Shown piece by piece: positions 3,008 through 7,725 of a stretch of 64,000 nucleotides of DNA (positions within the stretch are counted from its first letter, which is position 1; every line of letters starts with the position of its first letter). Under the pieces are notes generated by a model. That model saw nothing but the letters and a program-made list of their open reading frames with translations, was not told the DNA's origin and did not search any database. Both the position numbers and the translations under genes were made by a program. Location: NCBI RefSeq assembly GCF_012516395.1, contig NZ_CP051206.1, positions 4,903,334 through 4,967,333 of the forward strand, in the 5' to 3' direction. The stretch comes from Dolichospermum flos-aquae CCAP 1403/13F. Lineage in GTDB: Bacteria; Cyanobacteriota; Cyanobacteriia; Cyanobacteriales; Nostocaceae.

Positions 3008-3403
3008 TTAGCAATCCCCATTTCCACCATTCCCACCTCCATTATAAGAGCTAAGATCAGTAGGAATTATCTTAGTTCCTGATTGATTTAAACTGAATGT
3101 ACCGGAAGGATCTGCTTTGAATACTGCGGGGCTAATTCCGGAACTTCCTGCTGAAGAATTATACAAAAGAAACTCTCCTGGATAAGTGCCGCTTTCTCCC
3201 GGTTTTAAAGTTTGTTGTTGTAGGGGTGACTTCTCCCCAAAATTATAAAAAATCCTCGGTGCTTCTGTATTATTTTTAAGTGTAAATCCTCCAGCAATAT
3301 TAGAAGCTTGTTCCGAACTTAATTCCGATAAACAATTTTCATCAAAAGCGTTTAAAGAAGTATCTTTTTTTGTCTGGGAAGTCGTCAAATTTGCTTGCAA
3401 CAT
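3008..3403 (-). CDS. Double-glycine leader peptide protein (bacteriocin/RiPP-like precursor)
   Basis: 131 residues. The first 39 form a typical double-glycine leader: a polar helix with LSELSSEQASNIAGG, ending in Gly-Gly at 38-39. This is the signal processed by C39-peptidase ABC exporters. The remaining about 92 residues are Ser/Gly/Asn/Pro-rich and end in a short glycine run with a terminal Cys (NGGGNGGNGDC). Start ATG 3403 has GGAG about 10 nt upstream. I do not recognise the mature part. No maturation enzyme or complete exporter gene lies nearby; the only related item is an ABC-exporter fragment 40 kb away. It could be a secreted bacteriocin-like peptide or a non-toxic secreted protein using the same export route. 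Confidence 0.65.
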   Translation of the reverse strand: MLQANLTTSQTKKDTSLNAFDENCLSELSSEQASNIAGGFTLKNNTEAPRIFYNFGEKSPLQQQTLKPGESGTYPGEFLLYNSSAGSSGISPAVFKADPSGTFSLNQSGTKIIPTDLSSYNGGGNGGNGDC

Positions 3404-4000: not shown

Positions 4001-4408
4001 GTGGTGGTGAATATGACAGATGATTACACAATTCAATTTACTTTTGCTGTTAATGACCCAGAATTAGATGATGACAGACGGCTAAAAATAGCAAGTAAGT
4101 TGCTGCGGGAATTACGAGATTCCGACGAAGTGGAAAAAGCAGACCGTGCTGAAGATCTTAACCCAGAAGCAGGAAGTAAGCCAGGTTTTGCAACTTTGAT
4201 CGGAGTGCTGACAGCACAAGTCAGTATGAAAAATATTAAAACATTTTTAGCCTTTTTGGGCGATCGCTTGGGAGACAAACCCATCGAACTGACTGTCAAA
4301 GTCGGTGATAAAGAAGTCAGTATCAAAGCCAAAAGCCGCCAAGAACTGCTAGAAAGCGAAAAAATAGCAAAAGACCTATTAGCCGCAATGGGTGGTGACA
4401 ATGGCTAA
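4001..4408 (+). CDS. Effector-associated constant component 1 (EACC1)-like protein
   Basis: A small acidic protein (135 residues from GTG 4001, 131 from ATG 4013). The leader reads gtg-gtg-gtg-aat-atg. GGAG at 3996-3999 is best spaced for GTG 4007 and still usable for ATG 4013, so the exact start is open. The sequence (a beta-rich start with IQFTFAV, a helical Leu/Glu segment, then IELTVKVGDKEVSIKAKSRQ) matches the EACC1-type proteins that precede caspase, FGE or NTPase effectors in bacterial conflict systems. That is family knowledge, not an experiment. Its stop overlaps the next gene's ATG by 8 bp (ATGGCTAA), so the two are translationally coupled and probably act together. Confidence 0.65.
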   Translation: MVVNMTDDYTIQFTFAVNDPELDDDRRLKIASKLLRELRDSDEVEKADRAEDLNPEAGSKPGFATLIGVLTAQVSMKNIKTFLAFLGDRLGDKPIELTVKVGDKEVSIKAKSRQELLESEKIAKDLLAAMGGDNG

Positions 4409-6377
4409 AAAAATGGCTCTACTGATTGGAGTCAGTGAATATGGTGCAGGTATCCCACCCCTATTATCTGCACTCAATGATGTCCAGGCTATGGAACGAG
4501 TTTTGCGAAATCCCAACTTGGGAAATTTTGCACAGGTAGAACGGCTGCTGAATCCTGATTCAGTAGCTATGAGAATAGCAATTCAAAAGCTGTTTAAGAA
4601 TGCAGGTAAAGAAGATTTATTATTATTCTTTTTTTCTGGACATGGAATTACTAATGATGATAATCATCTCTATTTAGCAACTCGCAACACAGCAAAAGAT
4701 AACTTTGAAGCCACTGCTGTAGATGCAAATTTTATTCAAACACAATCAAAAAGTTGTTATTCCAAACGACAAGTTTTAATTTTAGATGCTTGTTACAGTG
4801 GTGCTTTTGCTAATGGTTGGCACACAAAAAGTATTGGAGTAGATATCAAAAAGCAATTAGGTGCAGAAGGACGAGTTGTGCTGACATCTTCTGGTGCAAC
4901 TCAAACTTCCTTTGCACAAGAAGGTGCAACACTTTCCCTCTATACTCAATATTTAGTTGAGGGAATTGAGACAGGTGCAGCAGATACAGATAACGATGGC
5001 AATATTCATGTCCAAGAACTACACACTTACGCTAAATCAAAAGTCCAAGCGGTGAAGCCTAACATGACACCGGATATCATTCTGGACAAGGAAGGATACA
5101 ATATTTTATTGGCCTATGCTCCCAAAAATCCAGAAGCAGAGTATCGCAAATTGGTTGAACAATATGCTAAAAATGGTGGACTTAAAAGAATTGCTATTGA
5201 AGTTTTAAAAGCAAAACGGAAAACTTTGGTAATTACAAATGCAAAAGCCGAGGAAATAGAAACGGAAGTTTTAGAACCTTTTCGGAGACGATTAATAAAT
5301 TTGCAAAGTTATAAACAATATTTTGCAGAAGAAGTTGAGCAACAATATCCTCTAGATGAACATACTTTGAAGATATTAAAAGATTATCAACAAGATGTTT
5401 TAGGTTTTAGAGATGAGGATGTAGCATCAATTGAGTTAGAAATTACATCCGTTAAAGAAGCAGAATATCAAAAACAGCTTCAGATACAAAAGCAGCAAGA
5501 AAAGGAAGCATTGCAACTTCAGCAACAAACAAAAGCATTATCACAATTACGATTGCAGCAAGAAGCAGAAAGATTGCACCGCCAGCAAGAAGCAGAAGCA
5601 GCCGAACAACTAAGATTGCGGCAAGAAGCAGAAAGATTGCAACGCCAGCGAGAAGCAGAAGCAGAAAAAAATAAATCTAGTTATCAGTTAAAGACTTTTC
5701 AGTTTGAAACTGCTCAGATAACTTTAAAAAGCTCAATGCTTGGTTTGGTAAAAACACCGGAGATTAAACGTATTGCCAAAAGCGCCGAGTATTTTACCCA
5801 AGACTTAGGAAATGGTGTATTACTGGAAATGGTACATATTCCTGGAGGGACTTTTCTTATGGGTTCTCCAGAAAATGAGAAAGACCGAAATTCTTCCGAA
5901 AGTCCACAACATCAAGTTACCGTTCCTTCGTTCTTTATGGGTAAATATCCAGTCACTCAAAAACAATGGCGACTTGTAGCTGCTTTACCCAAGATTAAGA
6001 TTGATTTAGAATCTGATCCATCGAACTTTAAAGGTGATGGTTCGACTTCGCTCACCAACAATCTGCCGATTGAGTGTGTATCGTGGAATCATGCTCAAGA
6101 ATTTTGCGCCAGACTTTCCTGCAAGACAAATAAGACCTATCGTTTACCTAGTGAAGCCGAATGGGAATATGCTTGTCGCGGGGGAACAACCACACCATTT
6201 TATTTTGGGGAAACAATTTCCACAGAATTGGCAAATTATGATGGTAACTACACCTATGGTGGTGGTGCAAAAGGAGAATATCGAGAGAAAACCACAGAGG
6301 TAGGAAAATTTCCTGCTAACCCTTGCGGTTTATACGATATGTGTGGTAATGTATGGGAATGGTGCGAAGATGAGTAG
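4401..6377 (+). CDS. Caspase-like peptidase (C14) with coiled coil and interrupted FGE-sulfatase domain
   Basis: From ATG 4401 this encodes 658 residues. Residues 1-240 are a caspase-fold peptidase with the His-Cys dyad visible (His81 in FFFSGHG, Cys131 in LILDACYSG). A helical linker follows, then a Gln/Glu/Arg coiled coil with repeated QEAERLHRQ-like units (about 350-430). From about residue 470 comes a formylglycine-generating-enzyme/C-type-lectin fold domain (IPGGTFLMGS, RLPSEAEWEYACRGG, GLYDMCGNVWEWCEDE). The frame stops at TAG 6375-6377, where the family has Trp, and the same frame stays open to 6578. Caspase-FGE proteins are thought to be target-activated suicide effectors in cyanobacteria. 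As written the effector lacks its ligand-binding C-terminus: a recent nonsense mutation, read-through or a sequencing error. Confidence 0.85.
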   Translation: MAKKMALLIGVSEYGAGIPPLLSALNDVQAMERVLRNPNLGNFAQVERLLNPDSVAMRIAIQKLFKNAGKEDLLLFFFSGHGITNDDNHLYLATRNTAKDNFEATAVDANFIQTQSKSCYSKRQVLILDACYSGAFANGWHTKSIGVDIKKQLGAEGRVVLTSSGATQTSFAQEGATLSLYTQYLVEGIETGAADTDNDGNIHVQELHTYAKSKVQAVKPNMTPDIILDKEGYNILLAYAPKNPEAEYRKLVEQYAKNGGLKRIAIEVLKAKRKTLVITNAKAEEIETEVLEPFRRRLINLQSYKQYFAEEVEQQYPLDEHTLKILKDYQQDVLGFRDEDVASIELEITSVKEAEYQKQLQIQKQQEKEALQLQQQTKALSQLRLQQEAERLHRQQEAEAAEQLRLRQEAERLQRQREAEAEKNKSSYQLKTFQFETAQITLKSSMLGLVKTPEIKRIAKSAEYFTQDLGNGVLLEMVHIPGGTFLMGSPENEKDRNSSESPQHQVTVPSFFMGKYPVTQKQWRLVAALPKIKIDLESDPSNFKGDGSTSLTNNLPIECVSWNHAQEFCARLSCKTNKTYRLPSEAEWEYACRGGTTTPFYFGETISTELANYDGNYTYGGGAKGEYREKTTEVGKFPANPCGLYDMCGNVWEWCEDE

Positions 6378-6578
6378 CACGGAAATTATATAAATGCTCC
6401 CGCTGATGGTAGTGCGTGGTCAAATGGTAGCAATAATTACATGAGTCTGCGGGGCGGGTCTTGGATCTACCCTCCTCAATTCTGCCGTTCCGCGTCTCGC
6501 CCCTTCAACTCCCGCGACAACCGCTTCAACCTTATTGGTTTTCGTGTTGTCTGCGTTGTTGGGAGAATTCTTCAGTAG
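6378..6578 (+). other. In-frame continuation of the FGE domain; DGR variable-region-like C-terminus
   Basis: After the TAG, 66 codons continue in the same frame (HGNYINAPADG..., then LRGGSW) and end at TAG 6576-6578 with GFRVVCVVGRILQ. From about 6448 to 6560 the invariant scaffold is RGGSW, CRSA, R, RDNR, IGFRVVC. The codons in between are largely NNC-type (ATC, TAC, TTC, TTC, AAC, TCC, AAC, TTC, AAC). That pattern is expected where AAC codons of a template repeat were diversified at adenines by a DGR, a system whose targets commonly are C-type-lectin/FGE folds. No template repeat or reverse transcriptase was seen in this window, so any DGR would act from elsewhere. Confidence 0.6.
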
Positions 6579-6747
6579 CCCTTTATACTTTTCCCCTCTT
6601 ACACTTTGCGCTCTTGATTTTTCCCTTCCCTAGCGTAACGGAGTGGAGCGATAAAAAATATTTTTTTAGATTTTCGGATGCTTGATGAGTGCTTCGTCCA
6701 TAATACAGAAAACTTTAGATTTAGTCAAGTAGATAATAGCATAGAAT

Positions 6748-6816: not shown

Positions 6817-7725
6817 ATGACCCGCTTTATACACGATCAATTCGCCAAGGACTACTTAGAAGAACTACTCAAACCTTATGGAGAAGTACAAGCAGCCAGT
6901 CAAGTAGCTGGAGAAATCCGAGAAATAGACGTATTGTTTACACCATTTCCCAACCAAACAACCAACGTAGAACTATTAGGATTATTAGGAAAATTAGCCA
7001 CAACACCAGCTATTTTTGAGCCATTTCGCAATCCAGCATCAACAGAAGAAATCTGTGATTGTCTGTTAAAATCATTAGAAGTCAGAGGTGCATTAAGAAG
7101 AGCAGCCAAACGCGAACAAACCAACAAAACAAAAATCGAAATTCCTAAATTGTGGATTCTCACCCCCACAGCCTCAAGAAACATCTTATCAGGATTTAGC
7201 GAGACAACAAAACCAGATTCCTTACCCGGAATATACTATTTAGCAAAATCATTACAGGCCGCAATTGTTGTTATTCATCAATTACCACAAACTCAAGAAA
7301 CACTGTGGTTAAGACTTTTAGGTAGAGGTACAGTCCAAAAACGAGCAATTGATGAATTAGCTGCGTTACCATTAAATCAACCTTACGTCAAAATCACCTT
7401 AGAACTACTCTATAACCTCCAGAAAAACTTAAAAATCAATCAAAGTTCACAAACAGAAGATCAGGAGTTGATTATGCGATTAGCACCACTTTACCAACAA
7501 GATAGAGAACTAGCTAAACAAGAGGGATTACAAGAAGGACTGCAAAAAGAAAAACGTCTAATTATCCGGCAATTAAATCGTCGAATTGAGGAAATTGACT
7601 CATTATTAATTCAAAAAGTTCAAGAGTTAACTGTTGAAAAACTTGAAGAATTAGGAGAAGCTTTGTTAGATTTTACTTCAGTTACAGATTTAGAAACTTG
7701 GCTGCAACATAATTCAATTAATTAG
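6817..7725 (+). CDS. DUF4351-type protein with PD-(D/E)XK-like N-terminus (Rpn/transposase-related)
   Basis: 302 residues beginning MTRFIHDQFAKDYLEELL. The N-terminal half has the EIREIDVLFTPFP strand-D-strand pattern of restriction-like (PD-(D/E)XK) folds. The last 55 residues (RQLNRRIEEIDSLLIQKVQ ... LEELGEALLDF) resemble DUF4351. A charged helical linker (KQEGLQEGLQKEK) joins the two. A paralogue with the same N-terminus lies at 33370-34365. Such families are abundant in cyanobacteria and suspected to be DNA-acting or transposon-related nucleases; activity is unproven. It stands alone, downstream of the long hairpin at 6748. Confidence 0.6.
   Translation: MTRFIHDQFAKDYLEELLKPYGEVQAASQVAGEIREIDVLFTPFPNQTTNVELLGLLGKLATTPAIFEPFRNPASTEEICDCLLKSLEVRGALRRAAKREQTNKTKIEIPKLWILTPTASRNILSGFSETTKPDSLPGIYYLAKSLQAAIVVIHQLPQTQETLWLRLLGRGTVQKRAIDELAALPLNQPYVKITLELLYNLQKNLKINQSSQTEDQELIMRLAPLYQQDRELAKQEGLQEGLQKEKRLIIRQLNRRIEEIDSLLIQKVQELTVEKLEELGEALLDFTSVTDLETWLQHNSIN

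Follow-up and report, generated by a model that had tools for sequence, protein, structure and literature searches.

A probably abandoned DGR variable region, cut off by a stop codon from its caspase-FGE gene, in Dolichospermum flos-aquae

The window analysed here is a stretch of 64,000 nucleotides of the genome of Dolichospermum flos-aquae CCAP 1403/13F (contig NZ_CP051206.1, positions 4,903,334 to 4,967,333), and the window coordinates given below count from its first letter. On its plus strand lies a frame that starts at 4401 and, apart from a TAG codon at 6375..6377, the sole in-frame stop within 4404 to 6575, runs to 6578. The part ahead of this stop (4401..6374) encodes a caspase of the EACC1-associated type and most of an FGE-sulfatase domain, the Pfam matches of the frame from 4401 being 2e-21 for Peptidase_C14 and 1.4e-45 for FGE-sulfatase. 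The assignment of the caspase rests on the NCBIfam model NF047832 (164.5 bits, with a cut-off of 140), and both the SGHG and the DACYSG motifs are present. The remainder of the frame (6378..6578, plus strand), 66 codons and a stop that are unattached to the caspase in this strain, also matches FGE-sulfatase (6.4e-7), so that the domain is found on both pieces and the variable region (VR), taken as 6450..6563 for comparison with template repeats (TRs), lies at the 3' end of a C-type-lectin/FGE domain. Because of the TAG that stands between caspase and VR, the two are not joined in the product; the stop may be a base error, in one assembly of one strain. The caspase gene is preceded on the same strand by a small open reading frame of 135 codons (4001..4408), which from its position alone would be the seat of an EACC1 partner gene and which no Pfam or NCBIfam model matched at E 0.001, and it is followed by a gene with a DUF4351 domain (6817..7725, plus strand), found at the same place in the genus genome G005. 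Further upstream, on the minus strand (3008-3403), lies an open reading frame of 131 amino acids with an N-terminal stretch that ends in a double glycine (LSELSSEQASNIAGG) and that, presumably, resembles the leaders of exported peptides.

An earlier note, made from the letters of the window, had claimed that the end of the caspase-FGE gene bears the marks of adenine mutagenesis, with invariant scaffold codons alternating with codons of the NNC type. The scaffold (RGGSW, CRSA, RDNR, IGFRVVC) and the NNC-type codons are indeed present at 6444-6578. Codons that end in C account for 17 of the 28 in 6450-6533 compared with 78 of the remaining 696 codons of the frame (Fisher p 1.7e-9), and 17 is the highest count in any stretch of 28 codons of the frame. 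The signature is borne out by comparison with TRs: relative to the two closest of 41 TR-like sequences in the fetched loci, the window VR differs at 19 of 31 template adenines in both cases, and at 5 of 83 other positions with one gap of 3 nt (L265; p 1.5e-9) or at 8 of 83 without a gap (L267; p 5.4e-8), these p values being uncorrected for picking the best of 41. Thus, the differences are concentrated at template adenines, though not strictly confined to them, and the five to eight non-adenine differences remain because both TRs come from other genera. In the family, 105 of 217 genomes contain a sequence that matches the window VR with an E value of at most 1e-12.

The search of the genome for a TR and a DGR-type reverse transcriptase (RT) that the earlier note had proposed gave a divided answer: the assembly holds no DGR RT, and it does hold a TR, of another scaffold class. 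A profile search with RVT_1 over the 5.22-Mb, two-contig assembly returned four RTs, all of other types. Two of these carry RVT_N and GIIM maturase domains. The third, a protein of 757 amino acids with a fused AAA_5 ATPase domain (L011:22-2295, G000:C1 about 1.0031-1.0054 Mb, minus strand), has retron RTs as its nearest relatives, with scores below the NCBIfam cut-offs and with single-gene retron RTs as the best PADLOC matches. The fourth (L012:1279-2313) matches UG39, but the match begins only at position 216 of the 541 in the profile, and the N-terminal part of the protein thus seems to be missing. DGR RTs carry the motif SQ...YVDD. When the DGR RT of Anabaena sp. UHCC 0204 (P0001) was used as a query, it hit two of the four RTs of this genome at E 0.001 and 0.007, and it gave intact matches at E below 1e-150 in five of the 16 genus genomes (G002, G004, G005, G010 and G012). 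Since P0001 itself scores 7.8e-20 on RVT_1, the family search should have detected a DGR RT, although a replicon carrying one may be missing from the assembly. A clean empty site of a lost DGR was not seen either: the 12-kb DGR locus of G005 maps to scattered places in this genome. Two genus genomes that have no intact DGR RT, G007 and G014, contain short pieces that share 50% identity with the DGR RT and are probably remnants (L145, G007:C37:18354-18467; L153, G014:C69:10358-10489). As for the template, a TR of the class of the window VR was found neither in this genome nor in its genus; the genome's single TR, considered as the template of the window VR, was rejected on account of its different scaffold and 26 mismatches at 88 non-adenine positions.

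The window VR is one of ten written VRs, in four scaffold classes, in this genome. The other nine comprise seven of the SGA class (SGAART), which are all the SGA VRs found in it, one of the SSF class (SSFRTL) and one of the FGS class (FGSSSP). Compared with the TR of G002, the seven SGA VRs show 10-18 adenine mismatches and 2-5 mismatches at 80-82 other positions, and the SSF VR differs from a TR of G005 at 15 of 27 adenines and 2 of 87 other bases. The FGS VR stands at the end of an intact caspase-FGE gene of 626 codons (L106:6217-8094, G000:C1 about 1.8742-1.8765 Mb), with its TR 285 bp downstream (L106:8371-8490, about 1.8764 Mb); within the 120-bp repeat, 14 of 27 template adenines differ and none of the 93 other bases (16 of 29 and 0 of 94 when a few bases ahead of the repeat are included). 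No RT adjoins this gene and TR. In the orthologous pair of G005, the TR shows no difference from that of D. flos-aquae, and neither do the 245 bases counted from its start; the VR departs from the TR at 12 adenines and nowhere else. Between the two species' VRs, 20 template-adenine sites differ and none of the other 93. Given identical TRs and VR differences limited to adenines, at least one of the lineages rewrote the FGS VR after the split, or else the two inherited different variants. The pair could equally point to a writer that is still active, or stopped only very recently, which counts against the reading of the genome as writerless. Two other VR-bearing genes of this genome that were examined are kinase-FGE genes, and at least two of the ten are broken, namely the window gene and an FGE gene at 206 kb with only 96 codons open before its stop (L208:6144-6434, G000:C1 about 206.1-206.4 kb, minus strand). 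We also noted a palindromic, MITE-like repeat between a VR and a TR of this genome (L095:1320-1360), with similar short matches at many places in the genus.

Across the genus, targets outnumber writers. We counted 31 VRs of the SGA class in 13 of the 16 genomes, a lower bound taken from the fetched loci, with a DGR RT in five; nine of the 11 genomes that have no DGR RT contain such VRs. Among these loci the corresponding TR was found in G002 alone, and no other of the places that match its translation exceeds 82% identity. The 31 VRs were picked, from loci already fetched, by at most five non-adenine mismatches to the G002 TR; 32 rows carry the SGA tail, and the one left out (L299 of G015) has 11 such mismatches at 82 positions. 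Over the 465 pairs of these VRs, identity at third codon positions is 0.577 in the FGE body, 0.945 at the non-adenine sites of the VR, a value that is high partly by choice because of this selection, and 0.403 at template-adenine sites. For the seven SGA genes of D. flos-aquae, the respective values are 0.544, 0.946 and 0.360. With regard to such synonymous sites, selection on the protein fold would not be an easy explanation, whereas copying from a common template could account for the pattern.

How, then, might written VRs come to lie so far from any writer? One answer is that VR cassettes acquired their diversity in a cell with a resident DGR next to them and then spread by recombination between FGE genes. 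Together with the upstream reading frame and the downstream gene, the window gene aligns with its nearest ortholog, that of G005, at 91% identity over 3714 bp, and the G005 gene reads through at the position of the window stop; at about 6403-6612 (plus strand), with borders set by eye, the identity breaks, and G005 has a VR of the SGA class where the window has one of the VGR/RILQ class. The exchanged cassette comprises the VR, some 45 nt ahead of it and some 35 nt beyond the stop codon. Its 3' tail beyond the stop resembles that of another FGE gene of G005, and the nearest TRs do not extend into it, so that retrohoming alone seems a less likely origin than exchange between VR genes. In a tree built from 71 FGE bodies, from which two spurious rows (starting DGGAW and NGGAW) had been dropped, VR class needs 28 changes, compared with a minimum of 6 and a mean of 36.3 on shuffling (0 of 200 shuffles reached so low a number). 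Nine changes are needed for the nine rows of the VGR class, the window included, although this tree rests on 133 columns and leaves 22 of 68 inner branches open. However, exchange alone does not explain the adenine-limited differences between paralogs, nor the caspase-FGE VRs of D. flos-aquae and G005, which differ at template adenines only next to identical TRs. We put this explanation at not quite an even chance. To the extent that VR cassettes are exchanged between target genes, one gene can change its template class.

Another answer, which we consider less likely than not, is that DGR cores (RT, avd and TR) enter on plasmids, write chromosomal VRs in trans and vanish with the plasmid, so that clean VRs stay behind with no writer. 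In PLSDB, relatives of P0001 at 59.8-65.1% identity are found on plasmids of five cyanobacterial genera (Nostoc, Anabaena, Fischerella, Microcystis and Acaryochloris), and the 83 records of phage relatives of the DGR RT are all under 60%. The TR closest to the window VR, L265, is located on the 291,576-bp plasmid pn2 of Nostoc sp. UHCC 0926, in the order two FGE genes, avd, RT, TR and then ParA/ParB. This plasmid DGR is complete with avd and RT, and both of its targets end in RILQ*, like the window frame, but its TR is 3 nt longer than the window VR. The plasmid pANA02 of Anabaena sp. 90 likewise carries two FGE genes, avd, RT and TR, and the VR in one of these FGE genes has 17 differences from the TR, every one of them at a template adenine. 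This plasmid (L334, 56 kb) also holds a type I-D CRISPR-Cas set and further genes with RT domains. Its TR differs from that of G002 at two bases, 62 and 101, and four VRs are free of non-adenine mismatches to it: L006 of D. flos-aquae (81 of 81 matching, with 18 of 33 adenines changed), L002 of the same genome (80 of 80, with a gap of 3 nt and 17 of 31 adenines changed), L109 of G005 and L176 of G006 (0 of 81 mismatches each). These are the only four of the 31 SGA VRs that share with this TR a T at position 62. Furthermore, the DGR core of G002 is 95.5% identical to pANA02 over 2151 bp, and the DNA of G002 outside the core matches a Dolichospermum plasmid at 91%. Against this stand several observations. 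The DGR RT of G005 sits on a contig of 5.7 Mb, so that DGR writers are not always on plasmids; the remaining 27 SGA VRs differ from the pANA02 TR at one to five non-adenine bases, some of them common to several genes and species, as we would expect of other template variants; the 69-kb second contig of D. flos-aquae shows no similarity at E 1e-15 to the 49.9 kb of pANA02 compared; and no act of trans writing was seen. The first 20 kb of that second contig have a partial likeness to other cyanobacterial plasmids.

The view that no DGR was involved and that the NNC codons and the N-rich scaffold are ordinary features of an FGE-family C-terminus under selection can draw on the similar motifs of two pattern-free FGE ends of the same genome (L008 and L104), but we consider it very improbable, because those ends show 24 mismatches at 80 and 37 at 82 non-adenine positions to the best genus TR, because the non-adenine third positions of the SGA VRs are about 95% identical where the bodies reach about 55%, and because it is refuted for the genome's own TR-VR pair.

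We conclude, with a probability of roughly four in five, that positions 6450-6563 are a VR of an EACC1-type caspase-FGE gene that was formerly written by a DGR and is now a writerless orphan, disconnected by a stop and probably abandoned. Under this scenario, adenine mutagenesis from a DGR template would have written the VR in the past; the writer, that is, the RT with a matching TR, is absent from the genome as assembled, and the stop detaches the VR from the caspase. We infer that this lineage formerly possessed the writer, as opposed to having received a cassette written elsewhere, and that the window gene no longer works. The earlier note had left a choice between diversification in trans and an abandoned target; trans writing from within this genome is impossible as assembled, and abandonment fits best, given the lack of a DGR RT, the lack of a TR of the class and the stop ahead of the VR. 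Its idea of a diversifiable caspase is a better fit to the locus at about 1.876 Mb, where a TR accompanies an intact caspase-FGE gene, apart from the missing RT. In its intact form, the product would be an EACC1-type caspase with a C-terminal FGE/C-type-lectin surface varied by a DGR, and would presumably act in biological conflict as a sensor-effector, which agrees with the proposed role of proteins of this kind in the sensing of invaders (PMC7159879; PMC10907252). With its VR detached and no rewriter found in the assembly, the window gene is an ordinary kind of DGR target turned relic.

Several parts of this picture are already known. In its account of remote variable proteins, PMC7517822 describes C-terminal VRs with a C-type-lectin fold and orthocaspase N-termini far from any DGR locus and raises the removal of the diversifying parts after a variant has been selected, so that remote targets, orthocaspase targets and later removal are not new here. 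The window VR, too, belongs to a C-terminal C-type-lectin fold with a caspase N-terminus; unlike the remote targets described there, it has no DGR RT in its assembly, its frame is broken and its VR class differs between orthologs. For Anabaena sp. 90, that account reports a remnant of an RT only; provided that this is the RT of pANA02, it is in fact accompanied there by avd, a TR and a gene that bears a VR. In Thiohalocapsa PB-PSB1, trans activity, degenerate DGR loci and MITE-like elements at such loci are described (PMC10907252), and the likeness extends to targets at incomplete loci that match a distant TR at all non-adenine sites and to the presence of MITE-like elements; however, TR and RT there belong to the same genome, whereas the perfectly matching TR here is on a plasmid of another strain. 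The gene order, with a small gene 5' to a caspase gene whose C-terminal domain is variable, resembles that of the two-gene EACC1-caspase conflict system, which is placed mainly in actinobacteria and for which the section on the system in PMC7159879 does not name an FGE C-terminus; the upstream protein of the window differs in that it matched no family. A literature search for DGR together with Dolichospermum found no paper, and the passages that our searches returned hold no statement of DGR writing from plasmid to chromosome.

The target of a DGR can thus persist after its writer is gone: of the 16 genomes of the genus, at least 13 have clean SGA-class VRs and five have the RT. Surveys that look for the RT first would miss such genomes, in which written targets persist and the writer does not. 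What deserves testing is this wider pattern, in which written targets lack a writer and some of them agree perfectly with the plasmid template of another strain. It is conceivable, although we would not bet on it, that DGR writers are transient and sometimes plasmid-borne, that they rewrite chromosomal sensor genes in trans and leave, and that the VR cassettes are exchanged as well. If the plasmid explanation is true, the capacity to hypermutate putative immune sensors would be gained and lost along with mobile DNA. Small differences between templates then act as a kind of handwriting: the non-adenine letters of the pANA02 TR recur exactly in two VRs of D. flos-aquae and in a single VR of each of two further species, and on the same premise such letters would allow tracing which writer wrote which gene.
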